A stretch of DNA of 60,000 bases from Spirogloea muscicola (lineage: Eukaryota > Streptophyta > Zygnematophyceae > Spirogloeales > Spirogloeaceae): positions 134,940-194,939 of the forward strand of contig WELB01000067.1 in assembly GCA_009602725.1 (NCBI GenBank). The letters are read 5' to 3'. Positions within the stretch are counted from its first letter, which is position 1, and each line of letters opens with the position of its first letter. The notes beneath the pieces were generated by a model. It was not told the DNA's origin. It searched no databases and saw only the letters and a program-made list of their open reading frames with translations. A program made the position numbers and the translations under genes. Shown here piece after piece: positions 4,899 through 58,210 of this stretch.

Positions 4899-4902
4899 TG
4901 CC

Positions 4903-7900
4903 ATGGCAGTCCCTGCGCTGGCGGCGGCCGTGCCGCTGACATGGGCTTGCCACGGCCTGGCTCCGCCAAGAACGGCGGCAGCTGCCACAAGTCTGTCACG
5001 GCTTGGCTTTCCGGCTCGTCCGCTCGTCTGGCCGAGGCAGCTGCAGAAGGCCAAGCCTGCAGCAGGAGTGAAGGAGCTCCGGTCTCGCCGACAGAATGGC
5101 GGCCGCGCAGTCGGGCCGCCGAGAGCCGCGTACATCGCGCCTCCGGCCACGCTGCAGCGGGACGCCGACCGAGGCGATGACAGCATAGAGCCGGCGCAGG
5201 ACCCACTCACCCACTTGGTGAGCAACACCCATGGCGACACAACGGCGTCGCTGTTCTTGTCGTCTGCTCGCTTTCGTCCTGGCGCTATTATATCCTCCGT
5301 ATTTTTGGTCCTCATCAAGCCAAACTCAAGGAAGTCATTGTATTCTCGCGGAAAATGTCAGTTGAAGACTTAACCAATAAATCCAGGAATTAACACGCCC
5401 TTTATTCCACGCTCGCTTGCAGAAAGAGCCACTCAGGGCGTCCCCGCAGGCGCGGGAGGCTGCACGGCAGGCGCGCAGCGCGGCAGTGCTCACTTGGGGT
5501 AGCATCATGGCACTTGTGGTCACGCAGCGGCTACGCATCCTGGTCGCGGTTGCCGCGCTTGTCGGCGGCACCTGCTGCACGCTTGTCATGCCCCAATTCT
5601 CCGGTGAGAAGGCCACAGCGGAGGCAGCTTCTTGCAGGCTGCAATGTCAGCTTGCATTCTTAAGTGATATAGTGGTATACTGTATATTGCTATTGTTGCT
5701 TTCTTGACTGCAATCGGTTCATTCCCCTGGCATATGTGCTAATGTGTTTTGGTAAACGATATTAACCTTTTTCTTATTATATCCTGCTTGCCCTTTCCGG
5801 CAGGGCAGTTCTTTGAGACGCTCATTGGCAAGCGGCAGGGCAAGCTGGGTCGCCTGTTGGGCTCGCTCGCCATCGTGTACGTCATGGAGCCCATCTTCAC
5901 TGTCGCGTACGTCACGTCCATGTGCACCGCCTGGGAGGCAGTCATGGCCAAGCTTCGTACTGCCGTGTTCCAGCGCTTGCTAGTGCAGAAGGCAAGCCTT
6001 CTTCTCCTTGGTCCTGCCTGTTCTATGCACACTCTGAAGCATCTGGTTGGTGTAAGACCTCACAATATGCTGTGGATGACGGAGGAGCAGCTCAGCATAG
6101 ATAGCACTTCATCAGACAATGTGACGACTGATGTTGCCCCGTTGTTAACTGTTGGATAACAGGTGGAATTCTATGACAAGCACAAGGTGGGCATGATTGG
6201 CACATTGATAAACAGGCCCTTTACCCACCCATCTTCTCCCTCCCTCCCTCCCTCTCTCCCTCCCTCCCTCCCTCCCTCCCTCCCNCTCCAACCCTCCCCC
6301 AACCCCTCTTCCGCCTTCCACTCTCCCTCCTTCGCGCTCGCTTGTTCGAAATTAGTGCAGATAAGAAATCTTGCATATGGGTGGTGAGACGTGCTGCCTT
6401 GAGCATTAGTAGGCCCTTCTTTATGCTGGTCAAGGAGGCCTACTTGGCTGTCCTGTATTTGATTTAGCACTCAGTGAAGTTTTCACACGTATTCGGGACT
6501 CGGTCTCCTGCATTCAGGTGTCAAGCTTGATGGTTGGCGCTGCTTGAATCTTTGGAGTGCTTGATCTTGACTCAGCTTGTAGGTCCGTCTGACGGTCCTC
6601 AGTGGGCTTGAACCAGGTCGGTGAGCTGCAGGCACTGCTGTCTACGGAACTTGGTTACATAGAGAAGATCGTCAGTGAGAACGTGTCACGAGATCGAGGT
6701 TTTCGCGCTCTGTCAGAGGTACAGTGGCCAACCTGATGCATCTGCAAGATGGGTGGTCATCTCTTGTGCCCGTAACTTTGATGAAGGCCTGTTTACCTGT
6801 CAGCAACTCGACTGGACAGTATCCAAGCACATGCTTTCTGAAATCTGTGACATGTCAAGGGCAGCATACACAGCTGTGTTTCACATCAAGGACACTCGTG
6901 AGGGGTCAGCTTAGGACTCATGTGAAGCAAGCCAGGATTCTTTGCATCACAGTCTTACGCAGCCTGTTGTTACTTGGCTGACAACTTCCATGGCCAAGAT
7001 TTTCCGCAATTCCGTCTCCTTCTAACGCCCTTCGAATACAATATGCACTGCCGTCAGGTGCTGGGCACCCTGGCTATCCTCTTCACGTTGTCCAGAGAGC
7101 TTGCTCCTATTCTCGGCCTCCTTATACTTGGAGTGTCAGCTGGAGTTGGTATGTTGCTGCCTCCTTGCGAGGAGAAACTACCTCTTTCTGTCAAATAAGT
7201 GCACAATTGTGAGATGCTTCATATGTGCCCATGGTATGAGCACCTTGAGCTACTGTTGTATGTAAGGTCTAGGTACACGTGCAGCATGGTGTAAGCAATC
7301 CAAACGTTGGGGTGAGAGTAGCATCGATCATGATGCTGCCTAGCTTTGTTGACTGTGCTTGGGTGCAGCCGTGTATAAGCGCACGACTGCCCCCGTCTTC
7401 AAGGCGCATGCCGCAGCACAGGCTCGGATCTCCGAATGCGCGAATGAAACATTCGGCGCAATCCGCACTGTATGTTCTTGCTGCCAAGAGCCGGTGCATG
7501 GTGTTGACTGTCATTGGTTCGAAGGCTCACACAATGTATCTGTCACCAAGGTGTTAGGCTTTAGGGTTTAGATTTTGGGATTCCGGATTTAGGGTTCGGG
7601 TTTGTTACTCTCTTTACATGCAGCCCAGAGCATGTCCACCATCTGAGCCCCTTGATCCCTGCAGGTGCGGTCATTTGGTGGCGAGATGCGTCAGTACAGC
7701 ATGTTTGGTTCTCAGGTCGAGGCATACCGCCAGAGCGGGACGACGTTGAGCTGGCTGCGTTCTGCCAACGAGAGCTGGACGCGTATAGCCATCTACGTGT
7801 CTCTTCTCGTGGTGTACTATCTTGGCGGCTCAAAAGTCAAAGCGGTGTGCCTCCTGCGCTCCACCCACTTTGTGCTCTCGTGGTGGCCTTGTCTTTGTAA

Positions 7901-17957: not shown

Positions 17958-19020
17958 GCCACTCAGGCCCGTCCGTCACTCATCAAAATAACACTCTATT
18001 CTCCTCAGCAGCCGAAATTCTTCTTTAAAAAGTCTCTCTCTTCAGAAGCCCGAGGTCGCCTCCGCTCCTCCCGGATCGCCGCCGCCGCCGACGCGGCCGC
18101 CGCCGCCGCCGCCGCCGCGGCGAGAGGCTATCGGGTGTCGGACGCGAGCAAGAAGAAGGCGGTCGCCAAGAAGGCGTAGGCCGCCGCGAAGCTGCACAAA
18201 GAAGCCGCCGCCGCCGCCGCAGTCGTAGGTGGAGGCGGCCATGGTGTCGGACGCAAGCAAGAAGAAGGCGGCCGCCAAGAAGGCGGCGCCCGCCAAGAAG
18301 CTGCACAAGAGGCCGAAGCTGGCGGCGATGCCGGCCAAGGTCGGCTCCGCCAACGGCAGCAGCTCCAACCTGGAGGGCCCTCGGAAGAGGGGCACGAGCG
18401 ACGAGGCGGCATCGACTTATCGCATCAGAGCGACGGATCTCTGGGACAAAATCGACTTATATCGGGGATGTCGGGGCACCACAGCAGATAATGACAGCGC
18501 CGGCAGCTCTGCCGATCTTCCGGGCATGGCGCCCAAAGAGGAGGCCTCGACAGGTCAGGGGAAGAGGAAGGCCGACGCACAGGCGAATCAAGAGGAGGCG
18601 CTATTGCCTCGAATTGTAGAACTTCTAGAGCAACAGCAAGCGGATATCCGGGACATTAAGTCCCTGCTCAGCAGGCCGATTGAGAAGCTGTGATAAGGGC
18701 CGGCAGGAATCTCTCTAATTGCAAGAGGTCGTGTACAAATACTTCTTAGACTGTCTATCAATCTGCCTCTTTCCAAATTGTCCGCAAGATTCCGAGATTC
18801 TGCTTAGCAGGATGATCAATAAGCTGGAATAGGGGCCGCCAGGGCTCTGACCGGCAACGGCTATGTACAAATTTCTTGACAAACAGTCAAATCGATTTGA
18901 CCTCTTCAAGTATCGTCGCAGTCCATGCTATCGTCACAGTCCGACGAGTCCATCAGCATGTCTTGCTGTGCATAAAGGAAATTTTTTTTGTGTGGTTGAT
19001 ACAAACTAAGGTCAAAATGG
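17958..19020 (+). mobile_element. Harbinger-derived element, accessory ORF broken
   Basis: A CCG run (18,070-18,118) leads into two Lys/Ala-rich blocks (SDASKKKA.AKKA...KLH, at about 18,140 and 18,250). The frame to 18,693 follows: PKLAAMPAK, SSSNLEGPRKRGTSDEAAST, an acidic/Ser linker and a Leu/Gln-rich coiled coil ending SLLSRPIEKL-stop. A TAG at about 18,176 ends the first block here where other copies have TCG. The downstream stretch to 19,020 is shared with the 27-kb copy, but no transposase remains. Confidence 0.6.
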
Positions 19021-23190: not shown

Positions 23191-23811
23191 GCTCCTCCCG
23201 AATTGCCGCCGCCGCCGCCGCCGCCGCCGACGCCGCCGCCGCCGCTGCCGCCGCGGCGGCGAGAGGCCGTCGGGTGTCGGACGCGAGCAAGAAGAAGGCG
23301 GTCTTCGGCCGCCGCGAAGCTGCACTAGGCCGCCGCCGCCGCCGCAGTTGTCGCGGTGGAGGCGGGCAGAGAGTCGGACGCGAGCAAGAAGAAGGCGGCC
23401 GCCAAGAAGGCGGCGCCCGCCAAATAGCTGCACAAGAGGCCGAAGCTGGCGGCGATGCCGGCCGAGGACGGCTCCGCCAACGGCAGCAGCTCCAATCTGG
23501 AGGGCCCCCGGAAGAGGGGCACAAGCGACGAGGCGGCATCAATTTTTTGCAGCAGAGCGACGGAGGACTTCGACAACATCGACTCATATCGGGGATGTCA
23601 GGGCACCACAGCGGATCTTGACAGCGCCGGCAGCTCTGCCGTTCTTCCGGGCATGGCGCCCAGAGAGGAGGCCTCGACAGGTCAGCGGAATGGGAAGGCC
23701 GAAACACAGCTGTATCGGCTGGAGGCGCTATTGACTCGGCTTGCAGGACTTGTAGAGCAACTGCAAGCGGAATTGCGGGACTTGAGGTCCCCGCACAGCA
23801 GGCGTGATTGA
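23190..23811 (+). pseudogene. Harbinger accessory protein, Lys/Ala-type, frameshifted
   Basis: CCG run, Lys/Ala-rich blocks in mismatched frames, then an open frame to 23,811 with SSSNLEGPRKRGTSDEAAS, an acidic linker and a coiled coil ending LRSPHSRRD. A TAG at about 23,425 interrupts the second Lys block. It is convergent with the transposase copy at 24.0-25.5 kb. Confidence 0.55.
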
Positions 23812-27827: not shown

Positions 27828-29035
27828 TCACAATGGCCAAGTACAGGGGCAAGCACGTCTACTGACGTACATCAAGAGTGCGTGCGCACCAAGGGGGCGT
27901 GCGAGTGCATCCCTCCTCTGAGCGCCTTGAGCCGCTTCTTGGACATTGGAGTGATTGGAGTTGTCCTCGTCCGCGGGCTTGCAGTCTAGCATCAAGTCGG
28001 CATCGACCGCATTGTTGTCGTCAATGTCTTGCACCTGTTGTGCTAGACCGTGCACGCCCCGACATGGAGGGGCACATTCTTGACCGGGACGTACACCCTC
28101 TTCTGAAGAAGTCTGAACCGCCCCTTGAGAAGTCCCAATGCGTGCTCGGCCACCACTCTGGACCTTGACTGCCTGTAGTTCCAGTCCTTGAAGGGCTGAC
28201 AACCCCTCTCGACGTCCTTGTAAGGACTCAACATGTACCGGCGCGGCTGATAGGCTGCATCCCCAAGCGCACAGTAGTGTCCAAGGTTCCCTCTCGCGCA
28301 CACCAGGCCGATCCTGCTCAGCAAAAAGACCGTGAAGTCGTGCATGCTGCCGCACAGGCCGACATCGAAGTGCCAGATCTTGCGGTTGGCGTCAGCGACC
28401 ACCTGCAGGACCACGGAGTGGTGGCTCTCACGGTTGTAGTAGACTGCGGCATGATCACTTGGATCGATGATAGGGATGTCCGAGCCGTCGACGGCGCCGA
28501 TGACGCACGAGATGCCTGCAAGCTTCTGGAAACTGGCGGCCATGCCGGCCATCTTCTTGTGCGTCGGCCACTTGAGTTGCTCGGGCTGCAGGATGTCTCT
28601 GATGGCTATCAGCACCTCTTAAAAGATGACGCTAGCGATAATTGATTCAAGAGTGCAGATAAAGGGTTCAAGCAAGTAGAGGACTCTATGCTACTAACCG
28701 AGCTGAAGACCAAAAAGCTTTTGAGCAAGTTCGTCAACGTTTCTATCTTAATTTTGGACAGGGCATTAGAAGCTTCAAATGATTGTTCTGATTCTATTTG
28801 CACGCACGATGGTTGATTATCATATTGATTCATTCTAAGCCAGGGGAGACACTGCCGAATATCTGATATCAACATTACTTTTGCAATAATTCCAGAAAAG
28901 CACGTGCACGCCGCTATCCCGAGAAGATCGGTTGTGGCCCTGATTTGGCTTAGGTTGCCGGGCGATGCAGCGTGGCCGAAAGCCTTGCTACCACCGGCAC
29001 AGCTGCTCTGTACTGCGTATCCCGTGTCGTGCAAT
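27828..29035 (-). pseudogene. Harbinger DDE transposase, best-preserved copy
   Basis: The frame 28,615-28,043 holds all three catalytic positions: GAVDGSDIPII (Asp), YCALGDAAYQPRRYM (Asp) and VVAEHALGLLKGRF (Glu), with GLCGSMHDFTVF between. A frameshift near 28,050 moves into the frame ending at 27,828 (DIDDNNAVDADLMLD, then RRDALARPLGAH). The N-terminal part (about 29,035-28,905: AVQSSCAGG, RATTDLLGIAAC) is separated by about 290 bp that may be an intron. DDE_Tnp_4 proteins cut and paste PIF/Harbinger elements. This copy is inactive unless the frameshift is a sequence error. Confidence 0.8.
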
Positions 29036-31256: not shown

Positions 31257-32330
31257 TCACTCTCTCAAGGTCCTGCAGCCTTCTTGCCAGGATGAGCAAT
31301 CGTCCACAAAGAGTGCAAAGTAGACTTCTTTTCCTTCAGTCTGCTGAATGTACAGACCTGTATCTGCATCAGACCTCTGACAGTCTTGCTCTGCCAGGTA
31401 GTGGTCAATCGTCTTGAACCATGCCCTGGGTGCTTGCTTGAGGCCGTACAGACTTTTCCTCCGTTGCAGCGGCTGCTGCCGTTCTGCTGCTCCGGCTGCT
31501 GCTCTTCCGCTGCACCGGCTGCTGCTGATCTGCTGCTCTGGCTGCTGCTGCTGCTGCTGCAGCTCTGGCTGCTGCTCTCCTGCTGCACCGGCTGCTGCTG
31601 CTGCTGCTGCTGCTCTGGCTGAGGGCGGCTGCCTTTCAGCTGGCTGTCTCTGCAATTCAGCTGACGCGGCCTGCTGCTCCTCTTTGGCAGCATGTTTCCA
31701 CTTGCTGGCATCAGTCCTGCTACTTGCTTCAGCTAAGGTAAGAGGCTCCACCTCAATCAACAGGACATGCTCAGGCTTCCTCTGCAGTCTTGCAGACCTT
31801 CTCAGCTGCATTTCAGTGATCTCTGCACTGTCTTTCTGAGAGTTCCCCTGATCAGCAGACTCAGTCTCCGTACCTTGAAGGTCTTCGGCTCTCAGCTGCT
31901 GCTTCTCCTAGTCTCCAGGCGGTCTTGCACCTCCTGAGCTGACTTCTGTGGCTGCTGCAGGTGTTGTCGCTTGTACGGGGACTGCTGCTGCTGCTCCTTG
32001 AGCTGCTGCTGTTCCGACTGCTGTTGCTGCCACTGCTGCTGCTTTTCAAGTCGTTGCCTGGCTGATGGTCTTTCCAGAAACGCTAGCTACTCCTGTGCTG
32101 CTGCGTCCTGCTGCTTCTCAGCTGGCGTGCTGTCCTGGTGAAGCTGCTCCTGTTCTGGCTGCTTCTCAGCTGACGTGCCGCCCTGATGCAGCTGCTCCTG
32201 CTCTGGCTGCTGCATACCCAGCTGGCATCCCTTGCAGATCCCGAGCTCCTGGGTTTTCCAATATTCGGTGGTGACCCCTTCCACCATCTTCTTCAAGTGG
32301 AGCAACTTCAGCTGTTCTTCGATCAGGTGG
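31257..32330 (-). pseudogene. Copia Gln-rich spacer and partial reverse transcriptase
   Basis: After the pre-integrase motif (KMVEGVTTEYWKTQELGICKGCQLG), the catalytic integrase core is missing. Gln-rich sequence encoded by CAG/CTG runs takes its place. The reverse transcriptase resumes only at SLYGLKQAPRAWF and reaches FVDD (YVDD in active enzymes); the fingers are absent. Confidence 0.75.
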
Positions 32331-32344
32331 CCAAGTCTGAGGTG

Positions 32345-33705
32345 CTACGATTTGAGGGTACTTGGAACTGAACTTGCTGTAGCTGCCAGGACTGGTGCAG
32401 TCTCCACCTTTTGAGTTCTGCACCTCAGCAAGAACTGCTTGTCTTGCATTCTGGCTACTCCCAGCAGCTCGCCCTTGCTGTTGCTGAACACACACTTGCC
32501 GCCGTTGAAATGGAAGTTCGTTCCCTTGTCACTTGCCTGCTGAACTGACAGCAAGTTTCTTGCCACTCCAGGAACTAGCAGCACATCTCTCAGTATGACC
32601 TCTCTCTCCACACCTTGACTCATCCCCCTGAGGTAGACAATACCTTTGCCGATTGAGGGCAAGGTCTCTTGGTTGCCAAAGGTGACAGTTGGCCCCTGGA
32701 TGGCTTCAAACTGGTGAAGAAGCTGCCGTCTCCCTGTCATGTGCAGACTTGCTCCACTGTCGATGATCCAGTTGTCAAGCTGCTGCTGCTGGGGCTGATC
32801 TGCCAGGGCCATGTAGACGTCGGTGTTGGTGTTGCTGCCGCTGGGTTGCTGGACCTTCTTCTTTGACTTGCACTCTTTGGCCCAGTGGCCCTTCTTGCCA
32901 CAAGCGTTGCAGATGTCCTCAGACCAGTCCTTCTTCTGGTACCTGCCCTTTTTGCTCTTCTCTAGATTGCTCCCATGCTGGCTGAGAAGCACAGTTGCTG
33001 GCGAGCTGAGAGACCTCCCATCCAGGATCATCAGGGCTTCTTCTTGAAGAACCCGCTGCGAAATCTGCTCGAAGGTGAGGGACTCGGTAGGAGTGCTCAG
33101 AGCTGTTACCAGCTGAGGCCATTCGTGCCTCATGAAGAGGAGCAGCGCGTCGGCGCCATCATCCTCCTCAAATTGACTGTCGGTGGCCCTCAGCTCGTTC
33201 ATGATCCCCTGGATTTTGCTGATGTGGTCCTGGATGCTGGCAGCTGGATCCCTCCTGGTCTCCCAGAGTTGAAGACGAAGGTGCGCCTTTGAAGCTCTGG
33301 TCTTCTTCTCGTAGATGTTGCAGGAGGGTCCTCCAGGCATCAGCAGCACTTCTGGCACCAAGGACATGCTGAGCTTGGCTGTCTGCCAAGGTTGAAGCGA
33401 TCAGTGCAAATTGCAACACTGTCCTTCCGCCGCTTGTTGCCGGCTCCTCCAGTCGAGGCAGGTGCTGAGGCTGGTGTTGGAGCAGATTGCGTTGTCTCCC
33501 ATGCAGTCGCAGCTGGTCGTCCTCTTCTTGAAGCTGGTGCTGAGGCTGGTGCTGGGGCAGATCGCGTGGTCTCCCCTGCAGCCGCACCTGACTCTCCTCC
33601 TCCCCCAGCCTGGCTTGCAGACTGGCTGTGTCCAGCTCCACCTGTTGGAGCTGCTGATGGGCTCACCACATCCCAAAGATCTCTGGCCTTCCAGAGGTGC
33701 TCCAT
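32345..33705 (-). pseudogene. Copia gag and aspartic protease
   Basis: The 33,705-33,340 frame starts MEHLWKARDLWDVVSPSAAP and then becomes a Pro/Ala/Ser repeat. 33,367-32,345 gives the gag core (ASIQDHISKIQGIMNELRA), a CCHC knuckle (CNACGKKGHWAKEC), and the protease with WIIDSGASLHMTG. Gag packages RNA, and the protease matures the polyprotein inside the virus-like particle. The frames are offset by at least one shift near 33,350. This is the better preserved of the two gag-protease regions in the window. Confidence 0.8.
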
Positions 33706-36417: not shown

Positions 36418-37207
36418 CGCCGCCGCCGCCGCCGCCGCCGCCGCGGCCGCGGCGGCGAGAGGCGGTCGGGTGTCGGACGCGAGCAAGAAGAAGGCGGTCG
36501 CTAAGAAGGCGTCGGCCGCCGCGAAGCTGCACAAGAAGCCGCCGCCGCCGCCGCAGTTGCCACAGTGGAGGCGGCCATAGAGTCGGACGCGAGCAAGAAG
36601 AAGGCGGGCGCCAAGAAGGCGGCGCGCGCCCGCTACAAAGCTTCACAATAGGCCGAATCTGGCGGCGATGCCGGCCAAGGACGGCTCCGCCGACGGCAGC
36701 AGCTCCAACCTGGAGGGCCCCCGGAAGAGGGGCACGAGCGACGAGGCGGCATCAACTCTTTGCAGCAAATTGACGGAGGACTTCGACAACATCGACTTAA
36801 ATCGGGGATGTCAGGGCACCACATCAGATCTTGACAGCGCCGGCAGCTCTGCCGTTCTTCCGGGCATGGCGCCCAGAGAGGACGCCTCGACAAGTCAGCA
36901 GGTCGACGCACGGCTGACTCGGCTGGAGGCGCGATTGACGACTCGACTTCAAGACCTTCAAGAGCACCACATCGACGTAAATCGGGGATGTCAGGGCACT
37001 ACAGCAGATCTTGACAGCGCCGGCAGCTCTGCCGATTTTCCGGGCATGGCGCCCAGAGAGGACGCCTCGACAAGTCAGCAGGTCGACGCACGGCTGACTC
37101 GGCTGGAGGCGCGATTGACGACTCGACTTCAAGACCTTCAAGAGCACCACATCGACGTAAATCGGGGATGTCAGGGCACTACAGCAGATCTTGACAGCGC
37201 CGGCAGC
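36418..37207 (+). pseudogene. Harbinger accessory ORF with 60-codon tandem repeats
   Basis: CCG run, two Lys/Ala blocks, then the open frame from 36,668. A 180-bp unit (starting about 36,793, 36,973 and 37,153) repeats in frame and carries NRGCQGTT, GMAPREDASTSQQVDA and RLTRLEARLTTRLQDLQEHH. The third unit stops at an N (37,208), where the sequence jumps to a LINE tail, so its true end is unknown. Confidence 0.6.
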
Positions 37208-38013: not shown

Positions 38014-38590
38014 GGCGAGAGGCGGTCGGGTGTCGGACGCGAGCAAGAAGAAGGTGGTCGCCAAGAAGGCGTCGGCCGCCGCGAAGCTGCACAAGAAGCC
38101 GCCGCCGCCGCCGCAGTTGCGCGGTGGAGGCGGCCATCAAGTCGGACGCGAGCAAGAAGAAGGCGGCCGCCAAGAAGGCGGCGCCCGCTACGAAGCTGCA
38201 CAATAGGTCGAAGCTGGCGGCGATGCCGGCCAAGGACGGCTCCGCCGACGGCAGCAGCTCCAACCTGGAGGGCCCCCGAAGAGGGGCACGAGCGACGAGG
38301 CGGCATCAACTCTTTGCAGCAAAGTGACGGAGGACTTCGACAACATCGACTTAAATCGGGGATGTCAGGGCACCACATCAGATCTTGACAGCGCCGGCAG
38401 CTCTGCCGTTCTTCCGGGCATGGCGCCCAGAGAGGACGCCTCGACAAGTCAGCAGGTCGACGCACAGCTGAATCGGGTGAAGGCGCGATTGACTCGACTT
38501 CAAGACCTTCAAGAGCAACAGCGAGCGGATGTCCGGGACACCAATTTCCGGATATGCAGGCTGATTGAGAAGCTGTCGTCTCGTGTCTAG
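37966..38590 (+). pseudogene. Harbinger accessory protein, Lys/Ala-type
   Basis: A CCG run (37,976-38,014), then SDASKKKVVAKKASAAAKLHKKP in one frame and SDASKKKAAAKKAAPATKLH in another. A one-base loss near 38,278 shifts the frame before the linker. The last frame (38,324-38,590) ends in DTNFRICRLIEKLSSRV-stop. The two Lys blocks are out of frame with each other in every copy in the window. Confidence 0.55.
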
Positions 38591-42232: not shown

Positions 42233-43400
42233 TTTGTGGGAAGTGGCGAATGGAGCACGTCCTGAAGGCCAGAGACCTTTGGGATGTGGTGAGCCCGTCA
42301 GCAGCTCCAACAGGTGGAGCTGGACACAGCCAGTCTGCAAGCCAGGCTGGCAGAGGAGGAGAATCTGCTGCGGCTGAAGGGGAGACAACGCGATCTGCCC
42401 CAACACCAGCCTCAGCACCAGCCTCAGAAGGAGGAGCGTCAGGTGTGGCCGCAGGGGAGTCCTCGCGATCTGCCCCAGCACCAGCCTCAGCACCAGCCTC
42501 AAGACCAGGAGAACCAGCTGCGACTGCCAGGGGGACCACGCCGTCAGCCCCAACACCAGCTTCAGCACCTGCCTCGACTTGAGGAGACGACAACAAGCGG
42601 CGGAAGGATAGTGCTGCAATGGCACTGATCGCTTCAACCTTGGCTGACAGCCAAGCTCGGCATGTCCTTGGTGCCAGGAGTGCTGCTGATGCCTGGAGGA
42701 CCCTCTGCAACATCTACGAGAAGAAGACCAGAGCTTCGAAGGCGCACCTTCGTCTTCAACTTTTGGAGACCAAGAGGGACCCTGCTGCCAGCATCCAGGA
42801 CCACATCAGCAAGGTCCAGGGAATCATGAACGAGCTGAGGGCCGCCGAACCTCGATTTGAGGAGGAGGATGGCGCCGACGCGCTACTCCTCTCCATGAGG
42901 CACGGATGGCCTCAACTGGTAACAGCTCTGAGCACTCCTAGTGAGTCTCTCTCCTTCGAGCAGATCTTTCAGCGGTTTCTTCAAGAAGAGGCCCTGATGA
43001 TCCTGGATGGGAGGTCACTCAGCTCGCCAGCAACAGTGCTACTCAGCCAGCATGGGAGCACGTTGGTGAAGAGCAAGAAGAACAAGTACCACAAGAAAAC
43101 GGACCGGTCGGAGGACACCTGCAACGCTGTGGCAGAAAGGGCGACTGGGCCAAAGACAACAAGTCCAAGAAGAAGGTCCAGCAACCCAGCAGCAGCGACA
43201 TCAACACCGACGTATACATGGCCCTGGCAGATCAGCCCCAGAAGCAGCAGCTCGACAACTGGATAATCGACAGTGGAGCAAGTCTGCACATCACGGGGAG
43301 ACGCGAGCTTCTTCACCAGTTTGAAGCTATCCAGGGGCCAACAGTCACCTTCGGCGACCAGCAGACCTTGCCCTCTAACAGGCACAGGTACTGTCTACCT
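42198..43400 (+). pseudogene. Copia gag and protease, several frameshifts
   Basis: MAVVRFNGTDFPLW, then a one-base insertion before MEHVLKARDLWDVVS. A Pro/Ala/Ser repeat follows. An open gag frame (42,619-43,266) has ASIQDHISKVQGIMNELRA, but a shift disrupts the zinc knuckle (CNAVAERATG instead of CNACGKKGHW). The protease reads WIIDSGASLHITG in the frame to 43,403. Confidence 0.8.
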
Positions 43401-43639
43401 TAGGGTGATGACTCAAGGTGTGGAGAGGGAGGTCACATTGTGACCAATGTGCTGCTAGTGCCGAGAGTTGCAAGAAATCTGCTGTCAGTTCAGCAGGCGT
43501 GCGACAAGGGAGCCAACTTCATCTTCAACGGCGGCAAAGTGCGTCTTCAGCGACAAGAAGGGCGAACTGCTGGGAGTGGCCAGAATGCAAGACAACCAGT
43601 TTTTGCTGAGGTGCAAAACCCAACAGGTGGAGACTGCAT

Positions 43640-44580
43640 CAGCCCTGGCAACTAGAGCAAGTACCCCTCAGGCTGTGGCACTCCAGACTTGGCCACCTGA
43701 ACGAAGGATAGCTGAAGTTGCTCCAGTCCATGAAGATGGGGAAGGGGTCACCACCGAAGATTTGAAGACCCAAAAGCTCGACATCTGCAAGGGTTGCCAG
43801 CTGGGATGCAGCAGCCAGAGCAGGAGCAGCTGCATCAGGGCAGCATGTCAGCTGAGAAGCAGCCAGAACAGGGGCAGCTTCACCAGGACAGCACGTCAGC
43901 TGAGACGCAGCCACAACAGGACGCAGCAGCACAGGAGCAGCTAGCGTTTCTGGGAAGACCATCAGCCAGGCAAGGACTTAAAGAGCAGCAGCAGTGGCAG
44001 CAACAAGAGAAGCAGCAGCAGCTGAAGAAGCAGCTCAAGGAGCCGCAGCAGCAGCAGGAGCTGCAAGAGCAGGTGCTGGGAACAAGCCAACAGGAGCATC
44101 ATGCACAAATTGTTGCACAGGCCATGCTGGCTAGTCAGGTGGAGCCCAGAGCTGAGAAAGGTTGGCTGCAGGAGGCTACAGTAATCGGAGCAGTGCAAGA
44201 GGTGGAGCCAGTGGTTCAAGACCAGGTTTCAGCACAAACAGCAGCTCCAACACAAGCTACAGTGATTGGAGCAGTGCCAGAGGTGGAGCCAGTGGTTCAA
44301 GACCAGGTTTCAGCACCAACAGCAGCTCCAACAACAGCCCCAGGAACTGGAGCAGTGGCAGAAGTGGAGTCAGTGGTTCCAGACCAGATTCCAGCCCTAA
44401 CAGCAGCTCCAACACCAGCCCCAACAGCAACTCAAGCTCAAGTTCCAGCAGCAGCGTGAGCTCCAACACCAGCTTCAGCAACCGTTCCTGTACAGGCTAC
44501 AACACCTGCAGCAGCTACAGAAGTCAACTCAGGAGGTGCAAGGCAGCCTGGAGACCAGGAGAGGGAGCAGCTGAGAGCTG
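43640..44580 (+). pseudogene. Copia pre-integrase motif and Gln-rich region
   Basis: After LDICKGCQLG the frame becomes MQQPEQEQLHQ-like Gln-rich sequence, as in the other copy. Here it also has a tandem unit of about 78 bp encoding ATVIGAV.EVEPVVQDQVSA, repeated about three times (44,177-44,440). No integrase HHCC-to-DDE core is present. Confidence 0.7.
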
Positions 44581-44699
44581 AAAAATTTCAGGGTATTGAG
44601 ACTGAGCCTGCCGATCAAGAGAACTCTCAGGAAGACAGTGCAAAGGGCACTGGGATTCAGCTGGGAAGGTCTGCAAGACTGCAGAGGAAGCCTGAGCGA

Positions 44700-45300
44700 G
44701 TCCTGTTGAGGTGGAGCCCTCCTTGGCCAAAGCAAGAAGCAGGACTGACATCAGCAAGTGGAAGCAGGCTGCCAGAGCAGCAACAGGTGCAGCAGCAGCA
44801 GCAGCCAGTGCAGCAGCAGGAGCACGTGCAGCAGCAACAGCAACAGGAGCAGCAGCAGCAGCAGCAGCCGGAGCAGCAGCAGCAGCAGCCAGAGCAGCAG
44901 CAGCAGCAGCAGCCGGAGCAGCAGCAGCAGCAGCAGCCGGAGCAGCAGATCAGCAACGGCCAGTGCAGCACAAGAGCAGCAGCAAGAGCAACAGAACTGC
45001 AGCAGCCGGTGCAGCTGAAGAGAAGTCTGTACGGCCTCAAGCAAGTACCCAGGACGTGGATCAAGAAGACTGACCAGTACCTGGCAGAGCAAGACTTCAA
45101 GAGGACCAATGCAGATACAGGTCTGCACATCCAGCAGACTGAAGGAGAAGAGGTCTACATTGCACTCTATGTGGACGATTTGCTCATCCTGACAAGAAGG
45201 CTGCAGGACTTCGAGAGAGTGGAGACTCAAATGTCAGTTGACTTCAGGATGATGGGAGAAAGCAAGTTCCTCCTTGGGATCCAGGTGCAGCAAGATTGAC
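44700..45300 (+). pseudogene. Copia polyglutamine tract and partial reverse transcriptase
   Basis: CAG repeats (44,785-44,950) encode a Gln tract. It runs in frame into RSLYGLKQVPRTWIKK, LYVDDLLIL and FLLGIQVQQD, the palm and C-terminal half of a copia reverse transcriptase with an intact YVDD. The fingers domain is missing. Confidence 0.8.
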
Positions 45301-47532: not shown

Positions 47533-48118
47533 GCGAGAGGCTGTCGGGTGTCGGACGCGAGCAAGAAGAAGGCGGTCGCCAAGAAGGCGTCGGCCGCCGC
47601 GAAGCTGCACAAGAAGCCGCCGCTGCCGCCGCAGTTGCCGCAGTGGAGGCGGCCATAGAGTCGGACGCGAGCAAGAAGAAGGCGGCCGCCAAGAAGGCGG
47701 CGCCCGTCACGAACCTGCACAAGAAGCCGAAGCTGGCGGCGATGCCGGCCAAGGACGGCTTGGCCAACGGGAGCAGCTCCAACCTGGAGGGCCCCGGAAG
47801 AGGGGCACGAGCGACGAGGCGGGATCAACTCTTCGCATCACCGTGACGGAGCTCTTCGACATCATCGACTTCTATCGGGGATGTCAGAGCACCACAGCAG
47901 ATCTTGACGGCGCCGACAGCTCTGCCGGTCTTCCGGGCATGGCGCCCAGAGAGGAGGCCTCGACAGGTCAGCGGAAGAGGAAGGCCGACGCACAGGCGAA
48001 GCAAGAGGAGGCGCTATTGCCTCGAATTGTAGAACTTCTAGAGCAACAGCAAGCGGATCTCGGGGACATTAAGTCCTTGCTCAGCAGGCTGATTGAGAAG
48101 CTGTCGTCTCGTGTCTAG
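46727..48118 (+). mobile_element. Duplicate mosaic block and Harbinger accessory ORF
   Basis: 46,727-47,490 equals 37,209-37,970. The accessory ORF follows: CCG run, Lys/Ala blocks, and a frame to about 47,846 (SSSNLEGPGRGARATRR after a one-base loss). Then the frame 47,843-48,118 has a Ser/Asp linker and the coiled coil LLPRIVELLEQQQADLGDIK ending LIEKLSSRV-stop. Confidence 0.55.
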
Positions 48119-51230: not shown

Positions 51231-51868
51231 TGGGCACGCTGCAAACATGCTGAACCTCACGTTGGAGCACTGGCCCTTTGCTCGGCACCTTTTTCTTTGG
51301 CTTGGGATATTGTCCATTCTTTTTGGGCTGGCTTTGCCGGCCACTCTTCTCTATGGGCGAGCACTTCTTTGCTTGGCAGAGGGCCACGCGGCAGCTCGGG
51401 AAGCAGCTGGGCTGGCTTGTTGGGCGCTCCTGGGCTTGATGGGGAGTTCGTGAGAAAGACAAAACTCCATCTGAACCCCACGCGGTTGCCGGGACGCGGC
51501 GTACCGCCCGGGAGCCGCAGAAGGTACGCGTTACCGGGAAGGAGACCGGGTGGGTGCGTATCCGATTAATCGGATCCGTGCGCGAATCATATGGCGGCCG
51601 CGCTGGTAAGGAGCTACGGGGAGGGGCGGGGCCCGGCTATGGCGGCCCGGCTATGGCGCCCGGCTATGGCGGCGCGCGCAGCTTCGGGGGGGCGAGCGGG
51701 GGCGGTCTCCGCCAGTAGGAGGGAGGTTCTGGGCTCCGAGGGGAGGGGCCAGTACATAGCTGGGAGCGGTGACCGGGGAGGGAGGAGGCTCCCCCCACCC
51801 TGGCACCTACCGCCCCCATAACAAGGGTTAAGGGCCACCACCGCCATTGCCAACACCATCGCCGCCGA

Positions 51869-51870
<2 letters not shown>
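51231..51870. other. Tail remnants and GC-rich unique stretch
   Basis: A tail with GGGCTGGCTTTGCCGGCC near 51,325. From 51,430 to 51,830 the sequence is very GC-rich with CGGCTATGGCG repeats and no recognised gene. Confidence 0.4.
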
Positions 51871-51901
<31 letters not shown>

Positions 51902-52235
51902 CGCGGCGGCGAGAGGCGGTCGGGTGTCGGAAGCGAGCAAGAAAAAGGCGGTCGCCAAGAAGGCGTCGGCCGCCGCGAAGCTGCACAAGAAGCCGCCGCC
52001 GCCGCCGCAATTGCCGCTGTGGAGGCGGCCATAGGGTCGGACGCGAGCAAGAAGAAGGCGGCCGCCAAGAAGGCGGCGCCCGCTACGAAGCTGCACAATA
52101 GGCCGAAGCTGGCGGCGATGCCGGCCAAGGACGGCTTCGCCGACGGCAGCAGCTCCAACCTGGAGGGCCCCCGGAAGAGGGGCACGAGCGACGAGGCGGC
52201 ATCAACTCTTTGAGGCAGATTGACCGAGGCGGCAA
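51871..52235 (+). pseudogene. Harbinger accessory ORF, 3'-truncated
   Basis: CCG run, both Lys/Ala blocks, and the frame 52,019-52,213 ending GTSDEAASTL, where a TGA follows. The linker and coiled coil are absent because the sequence changes to AT-rich at about 52,235. Confidence 0.55.
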
Positions 52236-52416
52236 TTGTAAAATAAAATTTTTTAAAAAAAAAAATAATAAAAAATAATAATAATAAAAAATTGTAGTAC
52301 TTGTCGTACCATATGTTATCGCCGGGACCGAGGGCAAGGAACATGTGCACGTAATAATCTGTATGCACACCTTGAGGTCCAACAGGGCCTTCTGGACCAG
52401 GGTAATCTGGGTACAA
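52236..52416 (-). pseudogene. Fragment of a third PrimPol-helicase relative
   Basis: On - from 52,416 the frame reads YPDYPGPEGPVGPQGV, then HTDYYVHMFLALGPGDNIWYDKYY. The latter matches the helicase C-terminal region NTDYVHMFLTLGYGDNVWFDK of the 52.6-kb gene on the opposite strand. The Gly-Pro stretch before it looks collagen-like and has no counterpart there. The fragment ends in an AAT-rich tract (52,240-52,295). Confidence 0.6.
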
Positions 52417-52428
52417 AATTTAGTCTAT

Positions 52429-52605
52429 AGAACCTTATCTTATTACCAAATGGATGGTAGACCCATGCATTATAGAACTAAATATGCCTGTACCCAGATA
52501 CCCAAACTCTTTTTTTCATAAATAACAATAAATTAAGCACAATACGGCAAAAAAGAGCACATTCTGCATTATTAAGTATACCCAAAAATACCCAACGTAC
52601 CCAAA
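52429..52605 (+). repeat. Left inverted repeat of PrimPol-helicase element
   Basis: It starts AACCTTATCTTATTACC and ends near CAACGTACCCAAA. It pairs with 55,016-55,193 in opposite orientation with about 80-90% identity by eye (outer 85 bases nearly perfect). It contains repeated TACCCA motifs. Confidence 0.8.
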
Positions 52606-52653
52606 ACTGAACCCTGATAACACATATTCTTTGGTGCACTGACGCGTTACACA

Positions 52654-54977
52654 ATGGCTGCTCCTAAGCAAACACTTGACGATCTCAAATTTATTCGCTC
52701 ATTCTGCAGCAGGTTTGTGCCGTGTTACGTCAAGTTTGAGGCAGGCAAAAATAGACAAACCAAGGTGCCGGCTATCCCGGGCTGGACGTGCGTAACCCCG
52801 CAACAATCCCAAGCTCTGTTGATGCAAGAGCAGTTCATTGGCCACCGCTTCTTTATCTTCCTCACCGGCGAGGACACCAAGCTGTTTGTTGTCGACATCG
52901 ACCGCAAAGATGACAGCCGAGATGATCACCAGGACAACATTGACGGGGTTGTGGGCTTCGAAGCTTTGTGTGGCTCTATTGACCGGGCCGATACCTTTAC
53001 CGCACGCTCGATTGGTGGCGGCTATCATAAGGTGTACAAGGTCACAGACCAGATTGCCAAGTACCTCAAGAGCGGCCAGCCGATGGCTAATGTGCTCTGT
53101 GAAATACTCTACAATAAGCGCGGCTTTATGTTTGGCGAGGGTTGCCAGGTGGTGCATCGAATGTTGCCGCAGCCCCCACCCCAGGCTGTTGTCAACCTGA
53201 TTATTAACAACTATACCCAGGTGAACATTGGCGCCATTCATCACACTACCATTGAACAGCACGAGACGCCCGCTTCCGCGACCATCAATGCGCTGCTCAA
53301 CTGCGATCTCAACTGGCAGATATCCCAGGAGACCCCTACTTCCTACATGCTCGTCCCCGATACGTACCAGTGCTGCGTGGACATTACGGCGACGCATACG
53401 CAAAAAAGCCACAGTTGTATGTATGTGCACAAGAACTCGGTAGTGTTGACCTGCTTCAGCCACGGCAAACGGCTGCTTGACAGCGACATTAGCCGGCGTA
53501 TTCGCGCCCTGTTTTTTGACCTTCCCAGCGCGCGCGCGCACGGCGTCATGGAGATGGTCGAGGCCATCCTCGCTTGGGCAGCCCAAGAACACTTGGCGCG
53601 CGACAAAGGCGTCGTTCTCAAACGTATCCATGCATTGATACCCGTGTACAAAAGGCTAGACACCTACGAACACTTCTTGACTTCCAGGCTCGCGGCTTAC
53701 GACCAGCTTAAGGCATTCCCCCGACGCTTCAACGATCTGCTTATCTACATGGCATGCGTCGACAACCCCGCATTTCCCTTCATCCGCAAGGATACCACCT
53801 ACATCGGTTTTACTAACGGCATGCTTAATATTGTCAGCGGTGAGCTAGAAGACTACGACAACCTCCCCCATCACGTGTCGCCCCGGCATTATATCGACCA
53901 GCCATGTCGCTTCGATGGCCTCGATACGCCCCTCTTCGACCGCATCTTCCGCTTTCAATTGGACGCCGGCAACGCTATAGAGACGGAGGCTGTTTATGCC
54001 TACCTCCTGGGCCTCATCGGCAGGCTGTTCTACGACGTGGGCCGCTTCGACGCCTTTGATGTGATGCCTTTTGTGGTTGGCGACACCAACACCGGCAAGT
54101 CGACGCTTGTAGCCATTGTTGAGGCCATGTTTGCTCCTGGTTGCGTCGGGGTGGTGGATTCCTCGCATGAGACTATTTTTGGCCTGCAGTCGATGCACGA
54201 CAAGGAACTTATTGTCTGCCCAGAGATGCCCGAAAACATGGCCCAGCAGCTAGCATCAGACAAATTCAAGAAGATGATTTGCGGTGAGCAAGTGGCCCAT
54301 CAAGCACGCCGTAGCCGACACCGTACGTTGGACAGTCCCCATGCTCATGTGTGGCAACGACTACCCGCGTTACCGCGACGAACGGGGCTCCATATCTAAG
54401 CGTTTGGCTATCTTCTCCTTCAACCGCTACGTCCCAGTACAATATTGCTCGCTAAAACAGCGGATTATTCAAGAGGAGCTGTCGCCCTTGCTAATCAAGT
54501 GCCTGCTCGCCTACCGTCGTCTGTTGCAACACACAGGCACCGCAAGCTTTTGGAGCACTTGTCCCGACTACTTCAAACTCAACATTGCAAGCATGCACGA
54601 GAACACCGATTACGTGCACATGTTTCTCACACTCGGGTACGGCGACAATGTCTGGTTTGATAAGCACACCGGCTGCAGAAAGGCGGTGTACTTTGTGCAG
54701 AAGCAGGGCCATACACTGGATGGAGGACTTCAAAAAGAAGTTCTACGTTTATATGCGTTTTAAGCACCCACAGGCAAAGTACCGCTGGACAAAAGACTAC
54801 AGCACCTTCAAGCGCCTAGGCTATGTAATAGACCGCCGCCATATGTGCCGGGCATGCAAACAGACAGCAACGAAGGGCTGTTGCGAAAACTACAATGGGG
54901 CCAATCGTTCACATATTGATATCATCCTCAATATCATGTACGTTGAGGAACATCTAGGACGCGATGAATTTGAGTAG
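52654..54977 (+). pseudogene. Virus-type PrimPol plus D5-like SF3 helicase, two frameshifts
   Basis: The ATG at 52,654 opens 546 collinear residues. The N-terminal part fits an archaeo-eukaryotic primase-polymerase: VVDIDRKDD (Asp81 and Asp83, metal site) and GGGYHK (121-126). A superfamily 3 helicase follows, with Walker A GDTNTGKST (476-484) and Walker B LIVCPEMPE (519-527). A shift at about 54,285 moves to the frame with sensor PMLMCGNDYP and Arg finger SISKRL. A second at about 54,720 moves to a zinc-binding-like end (CRACK, GCCENY, GANRS) stopping at 54,977. This layout is typical of replication proteins of nucleocytoplasmic large DNA viruses, virophages and polinton-like viruses, which prime and unwind DNA. 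Only two indels separate it from an open gene, so it is young or mis-sequenced. No capsid, ATPase or integrase gene adjoins it. Confidence 0.8.
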
Positions 54978-55015
54978 ATGCTTATCTTGTAAGTAAATCT
55001 GTTATATTTTAATCG

Positions 55016-55643
55016 TAAATGGGTACGCTGGGTATTTTTGGGTATACTTAATAATTGCTTAGTATAACGTTTTTGCCGTATTATACTTAAATTCTGCTAT
55101 TTATGAAAAAAGAGCTTGGGTATCTGGGTACAGGCATATTTAGTTCTATAATGCATGGGTCTACCATCCATTTGGTAATAAGATAAGGTTCTAAAGGCAA
55201 CCCAACTTACCAGCAAGTAACTTTTAAGGGATTGATTAGGCTGTGAATAGGATGTTGAGTCATCCTTAAATAGCACTCCATTTGGGCACAAAGTAGTAGC
55301 GGTGATAACCGTTACTGGCAAAACGCCTATTTAGAGAGCATCCATTTTAAGGGAATTGATTGCTACAACTTCCAGCCATGGTCCTTCCACGGGCTTCTAC
55401 AGGACGATCGAGCATGGCACCAACGTGATGAGCTTGCAATCGGTCCTCAGCCCAGGAGCACTTGTGTGACGCCTGCGGCCACGTCATACAGCATTCGTCA
55501 GAGTCAGACAGCAGTTCCATAATTAGTCCTCAACCCTTCTGGGAGTAGGCTGCTGGAAAACCTGTAGGACACAAATATCGAGCTATTCATGAACAACGCG
55601 AAGGCAAGGGGCATGACATGTATCAGGTCTTGCTGGCATGTTC
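55016..55643 (-). repeat. Right inverted repeat and left palindrome arm
   Basis: 55,016-55,193 mirrors the left repeat at 52,429. 55,116-55,643 is also the left arm of the large palindrome whose right arm is 55,671-56,199. GGGTA motifs lie at 55,021, 55,031, 55,041, 55,124 and 55,132. Confidence 0.8.
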
Positions 55644-56199
55644 CAAGAAATACACAGAATACATAAGGCAGAACATGCCAGCAAGACCTGATACATGTCA
55701 TGCCCCTTGCCTTCGCGTTGTTCATGAATAGCTCGATATTTGTGTCCTACAGGTTTTCCAGCAGCCTACTCCCAGAAGGGTTGAGGACTAATTATGGAAC
55801 TGCTGTCTGACTCTGACGAATGCTGTATGACGTGGCCGCAGGCGTCACACAAGTGCTCCTGGGCTGAGGACCGTTGCAAGCTCATCACGTTGGTGCCATG
55901 CTCGATCGTCCTGTAGAAGCCCGTGGAAGGACCATGGCTGCAAGTTGTAGCAATCAATTCCCTAAAAAAGGATGCTCTCTAAATAGGCGTATTACCAGTA
56001 ACGGTTATCACCGCTACTACTTTGTGCCTAAATGGAGTGCTATTTAAGGATGACTCAACATCCTATTCACAGCCTAATCAATCCCTTAAAGATTACTTGC
56101 TGGTAAGTTGGGTTGCCTTTAGAACCTTATCTTATTACCAAATGGATGGTAGACCCATGCATTATAGAACTAAATATGCCTGTACCCAGATACCCAAAC
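55116..56199. repeat. 1.08-kb near-perfect palindrome
   Basis: Arms 55,116-55,643 and 55,671-56,199 surround a 27-nt spacer (55,644-55,670). The arms differ by only a few substitutions and single-base indels, for example one base in GAGCTTGCAA(T)CGGTCC. The inner ends GGCATGTTC/GAACATGCC are perfect. Each arm can encode EHLCDACGHVIQHSSESDSS, open on - in the right arm (55,766-55,957) and shifted in the left arm. Confidence 0.88.
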
Positions 56200-56550
56200 A
56201 CTCAACGCACATGAGGCCCTAGCGCTTGCTCCTGTTTGCGATGCTGTAGTGGGGACAGCACCTAGCTGTAGCGCCCTTGCAGATGTGCTGGTGGACAACG
56301 CGGTACCCGAGGCGGTTAAAGGAGCTGGTCCAGCGGTACGGTGCCTGAAACGCATGACTTGTTCTTGAAGTCCTGGAGCAGCATCGCAGCGCCTGGCACT
56401 CTCATACGCTAGGGTGTGGTCCTGCGGTTACGTCATACAGCATTCGTCAGAGTCAGACAGCAGCGCAGGTATTCCAATGTCATTAGTTGATTGCCACTGT
56501 GTCACAGGATTATCCTTTAAAATGACATTATTACGCACAATGCTGCGTAA
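56200..56550 (+). other. Spacer with a short coding-like frame
   Basis: From the palindrome edge a + frame reads HEALALAPVCDAVVGTAPSC and runs about 50 codons to a stop near 56,359. A further copy of the CG.VIQHSSESDSS segment follows at 56,421-56,464. No family is recognised. Confidence 0.35.
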
Positions 56551-56565
56551 ATTTTGCAGCAGGAG

Positions 56566-57295
56566 ATGGAGGATATAGACTTTATAAAGTCGTTCAACAA
56601 GTATCGTGTGCCGTGTACGGTGACATATGACAATAAGAAGGGCAAGTATACGAAGCTACCAGCAATTGCACGCTATCTAGACATAACACCTGAGAGAGCA
56701 CAACAATGTGAGCAAAATGGGCTGTTCGGAGAGCTCAATGTTTTCGACAGGAGATGAGACAGGATCGTTTTGCCTAGATTATGATGTGTACAACAGCCAA
56801 CGGACAGATCATCTGGGAAAGTAGATGGAGTCGAGTTCGCGGAAGATTGGGGGGTTGGGCACACGACACTCGACACGTTCACAACAAAAACAATCAGTGG
56901 AGGGTATCATAAGGTGTATCAGACATGCGAAGAGCTAAGTAAGATACGGAGCGGTAAGCTGAACAATGTGGTGCTGATTGATGTGCTGTATAATGATTGC
57001 GCGTTCACATTTGGGACAGGATACACTATTGTGCACCGTGTACCGCCGCAGAAACCATCAAGAGCAGTGATAACTTTTATAACGATAAACAACAACAGGA
57101 CTGACGTGTCGAACAGTAATTTCAACGGTGGAAACGTGAATATTGGCCAGAACCAGATAACGAACAGCAGATTTTATAATCAGCCCAAAGGGAGGCCAAT
57201 AACAAGCACAAACGTGAACCACGTGTTAGAGAGTGACAGTGAATGGGATATACAGAAGGAGGGCGAGGATGCATACAAGTTGGTGCCTACTTCGA
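56566..57295 (+). pseudogene. Second PrimPol relative, 3'-truncated, frameshifted
   Basis: The start ATGGAGGATATAGAC opens a protein parallel to the 52.6-kb gene: DFIKSFNKYRVPCTVTYDNK, then (shifted near 56,736) FSTGDETGSFCLDYDVYN with the Asp-x-Asp site, then (shifted back near 56,820) FTTKTISGGYHKVY, VLYNDCAFTFGTG and an Asn-rich linker. The two indels nearly compensate. At about 57,290 it changes to a Harbinger accessory ORF, so the helicase half is lost. Its sequence is diverged and more AT-rich than the first copy, so it is an older or different lineage member. Confidence 0.7.
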
Positions 57296-58210
57296 CAAAA
57301 TCGACTTAAATCGGGGATGTCAGAACACCACATCAGATCTTGACAGCGCCGGCAGCTCTGCCGTTCTTCCGGGCATGGCGCCCAGAGAGGACGCCTCGAC
57401 AAGTCAGCAGGTCGACGCACGGCTGAATCGGCTGACGGCGCGATTGACTCGACTTCAAGACCTTCAAGAGCAACAGCAAGCGGATGTGTAACGAATTTAC
57501 ATGGCTGGAATGTCAATGCAGCTGTAATGTATTGACAGATGCCTGGAGATTAGATACCTCATCCGGCTGATAAATAAATTGACTGTCAGTGCCGCAGGAA
57601 AGGCTTGACAGATGCCTGGAGACGGACAATTTCACCAGGCTGGGCAGCGTGGCTTTGATATAGAGCTGAGAGCGGCGCAACCCGGAGTCGTGACACGCGA
57701 GACAGCATGGTGCTGGCGCTGGAACGGCGACGGGAGGTGGCAGCGCTGTAAACTGCCTTGACGGCGTTGTTAGCCGTTAGTATTGACGGGGATGATAGAC
57801 GGCTGACGATAGCCTGGGGGTAGTGACCGTCAGCTGCGAGTGACGGGTAGATTGTCGGTGGTAGCCGTTGTTAGCCGTCGACAGGTCGTGGACGGGTCAT
57901 CAACGAGAGACTGGGTGCCGAATATCCCACCCGGGCCCGTATGGCCGGGCTCGCAGTCCGTCGGGCTATAAAGGGGGCACCCGAGATGGGAGAGGGGGTG
58001 AGTTCTTCACCCAACCTCGGACCCCTGGACCCTTGCCCCTGCAGTAACCGTTGCTCAGTTTTACCGTTGCGGCCCCATCCCAATGCCTCCCGCTTTTCCT
58101 TGCGCCGCCGGCAGCCCGGGCTTGGCGATCCACAGCATTCGTTACAGGATGTCTGGGACATCAATTTCCGGATATGCAGGCTGATTGAGAAGCTATCGTC
58201 TCGTGTCTAG
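57290..58210 (+). pseudogene. Harbinger accessory C-terminus split by an LTR
   Basis: 57,290-57,486 has DKIDLNRGCQNTTSDLDSAG and the coiled coil (RLTRLQDLQEQQQADV). After the LTR it resumes at 58,147 with WDINFRICRLIEKLSSRV and a stop at 58,210. Removing the LTR and one target repeat restores a continuous match to the 38.3-38.6 kb copy. Confidence 0.75.
57487..58146. mobile_element. Solo LTR, 660 bp, with 5-bp target duplication
   Basis: It begins TGTAACGAAT and ends ATTCGTTACA, flanked by GGATG at 57,482-57,486 and 58,147-58,151. TATAAA lies at 57,967-57,972. TGTAAC/GTTACA ends and 5-bp duplications are usual for Ty3/gypsy LTRs. No internal retroviral-type genes remain, as expected from LTR-LTR recombination. 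The orientation is probably + from the TATA box. Confidence 0.85.

Follow-up and report, generated by a model that had tools for sequence, protein, structure and literature searches.

A candidate one-gene PrimPol-helicase replicon in the Spirogloea muscicola assembly, with matched ends and iteron words that differ between sister units

The DNA analysed here, called the window, is a stretch of 60,000 nucleotides from the 153-Mb assembly of Spirogloea muscicola (contig C67, positions 134,940-194,939; C-numbers denote contigs of this assembly). At 52,400-55,195 it carries a small unit in which a single gene for a PrimPol-superfamily 3 (SF3) helicase takes up 83% of the length and inverted repeats stand at both ends. 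From comparison with related units we consider it fairly probable that this unit is an integrated and now decayed member of a family of single-gene elements, whose predicted PrimPol-D5/SF3 helicase would bind element-specific iterons at both ends and so start extrachromosomal replication. With more reserve, and with a confidence that stops a little short of even, we propose that the family represents eukaryotic mobile DNA of a new class: a replicon of one gene that has no capsid, transposase or integrase, with mirror-image origins, each a stem-loop plus iterons, that replication keeps alike, with a private iteron word in each lineage that is read by its own PrimPol-helicase, and with passive capture as its only way into chromosomes.

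Gene and ends of the window unit

The PrimPol-D5_N-SF3 helicase gene lies at 52,654-54,977 on the forward strand. Its longest open reading frame (ORF) comprises 581 aa (52,654-54,399), and similarity to the full-length relative P0002 spans 52,666-54,974 in three successive frames (tblastn; frame pieces 52,666-54,297, 54,296-54,718 and 54,717-54,974), so that the window gene has been broken twice. The motifs DID, GGGYHK, GDTNTGKST, LIVCPEMPE, PMLMCGNDYP and SISKRL are present in the window translations, DUF5906 is matched in a window ORF (Pfam, E 1.1e-6), and the gene also matches phage and plasmid primase families. Among 31 full-length relatives DUF5906 was found in 29, D5_N in 28 and Prim-Pol in 24 (Pfam, E up to 0.1). 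All matches of the unit's gene are to primase-helicase families, with none to the transposases that define cut-and-paste transposons, and no HUH family, the defining feature of Helitrons and replitrons, is among the Pfam matches of the gene and the 31 relatives. Among solved proteins the SaPI5 primase-helicase comes closest, both in profile comparison (E 3.2e-6) and in fold comparison by Foldseek (7om0, E 1.6e-10, template modelling (TM) score 0.30).

The closest gene pair, C67 and C290, is under purifying selection: over 212 codons of the first window piece, nonsynonymous differences per site (pN) amount to 0.057 and synonymous ones (pS) to 0.41, a ratio of approximately 0.10. In nine further gene comparisons the synonymous divergence (dS) was saturated or above 1.6, with ratios of 0.05-0.18 where computable. 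Such low pN/pS indicates that the protein was maintained in working order in these lineages before the break in the window copy.

The 5' terminal inverted repeat (52,400-52,603, forward strand) is origin-like and shows 89% identity over about 177 bp to the 3' repeat (55,020-55,195, reverse strand), in which the outer stem arm is gone and the inner triple and mid pair are kept. More exactly, approximately 52,425-52,603 aligns with 55,020-55,196 over 177-180 bp, and the outer 91 nt are 98% identical. Read from the outside inward, the 5' end holds GGGTA at 52,400 and 52,409, a loop, TACCC at 52,491 and 52,499, an inner iteron triple of TACCC (52,579-52,602, forward strand; at 52,579, 52,589 and 52,598) and then the start codon. 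The outer GGGTA pair can pair with the mid TACCC pair, giving the stem-loop at 52,400-52,503 (forward strand) that was recovered by both folding (z -5.7; 0 of 150 shuffles as low) and stem search (an 11-bp perfect core, matched by none of 100 shuffles). Any triple was held by 8 of 500 shuffles of the 5' sequence. At the 3' end there is a GGGTA triple at 55,021, 55,030 and 55,040 (0 of 500 shuffles) and a mid pair at 55,118 and 55,126, and folding gave no stable stem-loop there (z -0.6). The left flank, 52,380-52,426, had also been considered as a head-to-head junction of two repeats; this was dropped, as the fold shows the outer stem arm in this place.

A first-pass annotation, made from the letters of the window alone, had described a single PrimPol-SF3 helicase gene with these motifs between inverted repeats and with neither capsid nor integrase gene alongside. 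The gene and its repeats are as it described, and no capsid or integrase gene appeared in the ORFs covered by our partial scan. Its right boundary, 55,643, has to be moved to 55,195; the former position falls at the inner edge of a palindrome of 1.09 kb that is a separate feature.

Seven two-ended units and their iteron words

When the fetched loci were compared with themselves by blastn, inverted repeats around the gene appeared in C463a, C463b, C403c and C290, the last with an internally deleted gene. Together with C403a, C403b and the window unit (C67) there are seven two-ended units on four contigs. The related family that the first-pass annotation had suspected in this genome is thus supported, and inverted repeats do recur with the gene as it supposed; what it did not foresee is that their sequence differs in most units. 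Within a unit the ends can be closely matched, with 95% identity over 221 bp in C463a, 95% over 309 bp in C403c, 92% over 196 bp in C290 and the 89% of C67. Between different two-ended units they align over no more than 53 bp, though the genes align; the exception is C67 and the C403 half-units, which have a common word and align further. The gene edges lie approximately 30-60 bp from the inverted ends (C67, C463a), which leaves no room for a second gene.

In six of the seven units the same 5-base word stands in a triple array at each end, its copies spaced by about 10 bp. The words are TACCC in C67, ACTCC in C463a, GACTC in C463b, TACCC (TACCCC) in C403a, TTACTCA in C403b and TATCC in C290, and any triple occurs in 0-8 of 500 mononucleotide shuffles per flank. 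The word has opposite orientations at the two ends of C403b, and in C463b the triple sits in the outer part of the end. In C403c each end has instead a 20-bp stem whose arms are of the ACTCACACA type (0 of 100 shuffles in either case). Triples are carried also by two C403 half-units (30.0-30.4 and 34.8-35.3 kb), which are not counted among the seven because their order shows two different units. Three TACTCA words precede the gene in the N-terminal fragments on C104 and C37 (read by eye).

Inverted copies of the word form a stem of 11-24 bp with a loop of 49-73 nt in C67, C463a and C403c. In a stem search over 18 flanks (loops of 30-110 nt, 100 dinucleotide shuffles), stems reached by at most 2 of 100 shuffles were present in seven flanks (C67 5', both of C463a, both of C403c, C463b 3' and C290 3'); the remainder gave 4-6 of 100 (three flanks) or 20-96 of 100 (eight flanks). 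The C463b 3' stem is not made of the word. When 20 ends were folded, 11 gave a z of at most -2.7, and ten of these belong to one related ACTCC class.

A tree of 58 proteins groups C67 with C290 (support 100/99) and C463a with C403a (97/95), and in both pairs the sister units differ in word (TACCC versus TATCC, and ACTCC versus TACCC(C), respectively). The five rows of this assembly fall in three places of the tree, and its well-supported branches require at least two word changes. A protein of contig C290 corresponds to SM000290S10909 in EukProt, with coordinates in agreement, and genes of Spirogloea muscicola bear the prefix SM000 (PMC12290401).

On the model of solved and published relatives, the helicase part would assemble on the iterons or the stem-loop and melt the end, after which the PrimPol part would prime and host polymerases would carry out the bulk of synthesis. 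Both ends would act as origins. Their similarity would be maintained by end-to-end copying, through a hairpin, strand switching or recombination between them, so that the two ends of a unit would stay matched and the word would drift between lineages. Chromosomal copies would arise passively, when replicons or their broken and fused pieces are captured at breaks, and this would explain ragged edges, the lack of target-site duplications, the many end fragments and composites such as the one at 52,231-57,289.

Several observations weigh against this scheme. The protein model is middling (predicted local distance difference test score, pLDDT, 75.8; predicted TM score, pTM, 0.46), the Foldseek TM-scores are low (0.30 to 7om0), and dS is saturated or above 1.6 in nine of the ten comparisons. 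The ends of C463b are only 75% identical over 110 bp, and those of C403a and C403b are alike over just 28 and 23 bp, bases which are the words themselves. C403c is without a triple array, 11 of the 18 flanks have no stem beyond 2 of 100 shuffles, and 9 of the 20 folded ends have z of -1.4 or higher, while 2 of 36 random windows, unscreened for repeats, also reached -2.7 or lower. Scans of viral contigs, prokaryote genomes and phages yielded no relatives. In addition, the contigs with unbroken copies have a GC content of 42-45%, the window being mostly at 50-60%, and may be another organism's.

Insertion site, rival accounts and the host

The unit is part of a composite insertion of about 5.06 kb (52,231-57,289; edges placed to within a few bp) that lies in a GC-rich host repeat. 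This repeat has CCG tracts and many copies in the window (51,860-52,229 together with 57,290-57,487, and others at 36.7, 38.2, 23.5, 47.8 and 18.3 kb). The joined flanks match six uninterrupted copies, five in the window (36,681-36,925, 38,236-38,485, 23,468-23,686, 47,755-47,972 and 18,342-18,558) and one at 7,368-7,618 of locus L047. No N is present between 50,048 and 60,000 of the window, and since no N is nearby and the block interrupts a host repeat with uninterrupted copies, it is an insertion and not a scaffold join.

Besides the unit, the insertion contains several rearranged pieces. On its left, outside the unit, there is a fragment of another gene copy (52,291-52,365, reverse strand; about residues 651-675, P0002 tblastn) with 89% identity over 66 bp to C403a. 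On its right is the palindrome (55,111-56,202), built of the 3' repeat plus dispersed-repeat sequence, a 27-bp centre and the same inverted; the arms, 55,111-55,643 and 55,671-56,202, mismatch in 11 of 533 columns, and a third, truncated repeat copy lies inside it at 56,117-56,202. A 43-bp word from 55,196-56,116 recurs on C184, C107 and C336 and near window 56,421, and is a dispersed repeat. The palindrome at 55,196-56,116 was tried as a hairpin telomere and rejected, because the arms have matches elsewhere in dispersed repeats that lack the gene. There follow, both by similarity, a C-terminal fragment of another gene copy (56,180-56,347, reverse strand; about residues 709-771) and the N-terminal piece of a second, diverged PrimPol gene (56,554-57,289, forward strand; about residues 1-237), with no triple in the 207 bp preceding it. 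The inverted C-terminal piece and this N-terminal piece (56,282-57,289) form the same composite at 3,980-5,021 of locus L048 on C107, with 93.6% identity over 1,042 columns. The C107 composite sits in another host repeat, with its empty site at window 17,802/17,812, and the two composites break off about 24 bp apart, near residue 240.

This pattern fits capture of element DNA and rearranged pieces over cut-and-paste movement. Had the units been moved as non-autonomous or odd DNA transposons, their ends would be recognised by a transposase acting in trans and the PrimPol would be mere cargo. The terminal inverted repeats, the spread over 20 contigs, the solo ends and the derived repeat family found at six of six loci read agree with such a transposon; however, all five unit edges checked are free of the target-site duplications by which cut-and-paste transposons are defined, the unit ends have no common terminal motif (by eye), and the ends of sister units are wholly different. 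We therefore regard a transposon as quite improbable. The genome-wide search that the first-pass annotation had proposed, for copies with the same ends and target-site duplications, thus recovered the layout, with ends that differ and no duplication at those five edges.

The tail-to-tail junction at 55,111-56,202 is readable either way with respect to the form of the replicating molecule. In a circular, plasmid-like replicon one inverted repeat would be the origin, and breakage there would mimic terminal repeats; the plasmid pRN1 indeed has a stem-loop origin beside its gene, and the edges of the integrated units are ragged. Two matched origin copies per unit, however, fit a linear molecule more simply, and the units examined offered no joined end pair with the gene on both sides in direct order. 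A circle accordingly seems to us unlikely, if still worth keeping in mind.

As for neighbouring genes, the Pfam scan of the window (13 of 25 ORFs of at least 180 aa, and 8 shorter ones) returned only the PrimPol gene, copia and DDE-transposase families, with no capsid or integrase family, and a partial scan of C403 and C463 found neither among 14 ORFs. The search for capsid genes across the genome carries no weight, since its control matched nowhere. Pieces of a DDE_Tnp_4 transposase and of copia-type retrotransposons lie at window 28,043-28,615, 31,257-33,367 and 42,619-45,299. The gene and its repeats could also be what is left of a larger integrated virus (a polinton-like virus, virophage or giant virus), the replication gene having survived best. 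Such viruses carry PrimPol-D5 helicases, the best viral fold match being the D5 primase/helicase of Aureococcus anophagefferens virus (E 4.6e-42), and Bellas et al. (PMC10120064) describe primase-helicases within insertions of 15-30 kb that also carry capsid and integrase genes. Against a virus stand the seven units, in which inverted ends so close to the gene leave no space for another, and the lack of capsid and integrase families in the ORFs scanned; we judge it improbable.

A search with one relative gave at least 50 gene matches on 20 contigs. Of these 50, 18 have their start in residues 1-16, 15 run to residue 763 or beyond and 20 touch neither end, so that 30 reach a protein end. The C463a-type end has 16 matches on seven contigs, its own included (C463, C403, C184, C52, C420, C9 and C61). 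At all six loci read outside C403 and C463 (C184, C52, three on C420, and C9) it follows a short gene-like piece, FRNGMLNIA (by eye), and at these loci it is, to judge from its sequence, a derived repeat family without the gene. The three gene-less derived repeats on C420 (L055, L056 and L058) are approximately 9.6-9.9 kb apart, which suggests a larger tandem unit. On C162 (L061, 801-1,076) an N-terminal PrimPol piece, residues 7-98, is found in a PPR-type gene (by eye), followed by GTAAGT.

Unbroken frames of the gene are on C403 and C463. In these contigs (L037-L043) there are many intronless, mutually related ORFs that match no Pfam family and resemble nuclease or Crinkler-type proteins; a GH5/chitin-binding protein and a NicO transporter are encoded alongside them. 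The tandem copies on C463 (L037, around the N at 371) were set aside as a likely assembly overlap. Two protein searches (48 and 29 hits, 4 common) gave 73 distinct relatives, and their named sources are S. muscicola, a Cytophagales bin (P0022, which may be misbinned) and the chytrid Gaertneriomyces semiglobifer (P0075, 26%). Two further relatives from two subfamilies, P0028 and P0058, both list 92,672 as longest contig and may share one metagenome contig.

All this raises the question of whose elements these are. They may belong to an associated organism, perhaps chytrid-like, in which case the copies in the alga would be occasional transfers and some small inserts assembly errors. The GC contrast between C403/C463 and the window points this way, as do the 26% relative from G. 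semiglobifer, the single Ns touched by the inserts on C63 and C463 and the N gap near 10.2 kb on C104. On the other side, no gap interrupts the insertion in the window, for which empty sites exist, and C37, a contig of 874 kb, holds 1,562 bp identical to the C463 end, with no N in the fetched stretches. We take a foreign host to be a serious possibility, although we lean somewhat against it; it concerns the host and not the nature of the element.

Relation to known replicons and meaning

In anatomy, pRN1 is the closest published replicon. According to the available text on this plasmid, it encodes a PrimPol-type protein (ORF904), has a stem-loop origin of about 100 nt downstream of the gene (a stem of about 21 nt and a loop of 58 nt, conserved more in structure than in sequence) and can be reduced to a minimal replicon of 3,097 bp (PMC4234260). 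The units described here likewise combine a PrimPol-helicase with adjacent stem-loops, in part of their flanks. However, pRN1 is archaeal, with its stem-loop on one side and a second gene, orf56, whereas here the assembly is eukaryotic, both sides are involved, and there are one gene and iterons. The second parallel is bacterial: in the consulted part of the source, Rep helicases of SaPI islands recognise iterons beside their gene and Cch2 of SCCmec binds three, the iterons lying downstream of the helicase gene (PMC7581432). A D5-type helicase with short iterons adjoining its gene is common to SaPI5 Rep, SCCmec Cch2 and our units, but the bacterial islands have many genes and one origin, and are without inverted ends of this kind.

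Some polinton-like viruses and virophages are described, in the portions of the literature at hand, as having a primase-helicase and terminal inverted repeats and as being integrated in protist genomes (PMC4642659, PMC10120064). The replication gene is shared with them (Prim-Pol, D5_N and DUF5906 in most of the 31 relatives); the viruses, however, are of 15-40 kb and have capsid genes, in contrast to one-gene units with none in the ORFs scanned. Transpovirons, linear plasmid-like elements of giant viruses, had been listed by the first-pass annotation as carriers of this protein, which does not agree with the part of the source describing 6-8 genes and a superfamily 1 helicase (PMC3671162), as opposed to one gene and an SF3/D5-type helicase here. 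Defining features of transpovirons, transposons and HUH families are thus missing from the units, as is, in the ORFs scanned, the major capsid protein of polintons, polinton-like viruses and virophages. Parvovirus-type genomes combine hairpin-prone inverted ends and binding words for the replication protein with an SF3 helicase, an HUH endonuclease and a capsid gene; by contrast, our units have a PrimPol, and no HUH or capsid gene.

The element therefore likely works in the manner of pRN1- and SaPI-type replicons while being a member of neither, and the suggestion of a minimal replicon made in the first pass gains support, replication itself being predicted from the gene and the ends. A literature search, beyond whose reach most subscription papers and preprints lay, found no description of such an element. 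What is new here is filed as a one-gene variant of PrimPol-helicase replicons, which are themselves already known.

If this account is right, eukaryotes would hold a counterpart of the smallest archaeal PrimPol replicons and of bacterial satellites, pared down to a single gene with two origins. There would then be a second route, besides viral capture, by which D5-type primase-helicases come to lie in eukaryotic genomes, and, because sister units have changed their word, the family would offer a simple system for the matching of replication proteins with iteron words. A lone primase-helicase gene in a eukaryotic genome would then not need to signal a degraded virus.

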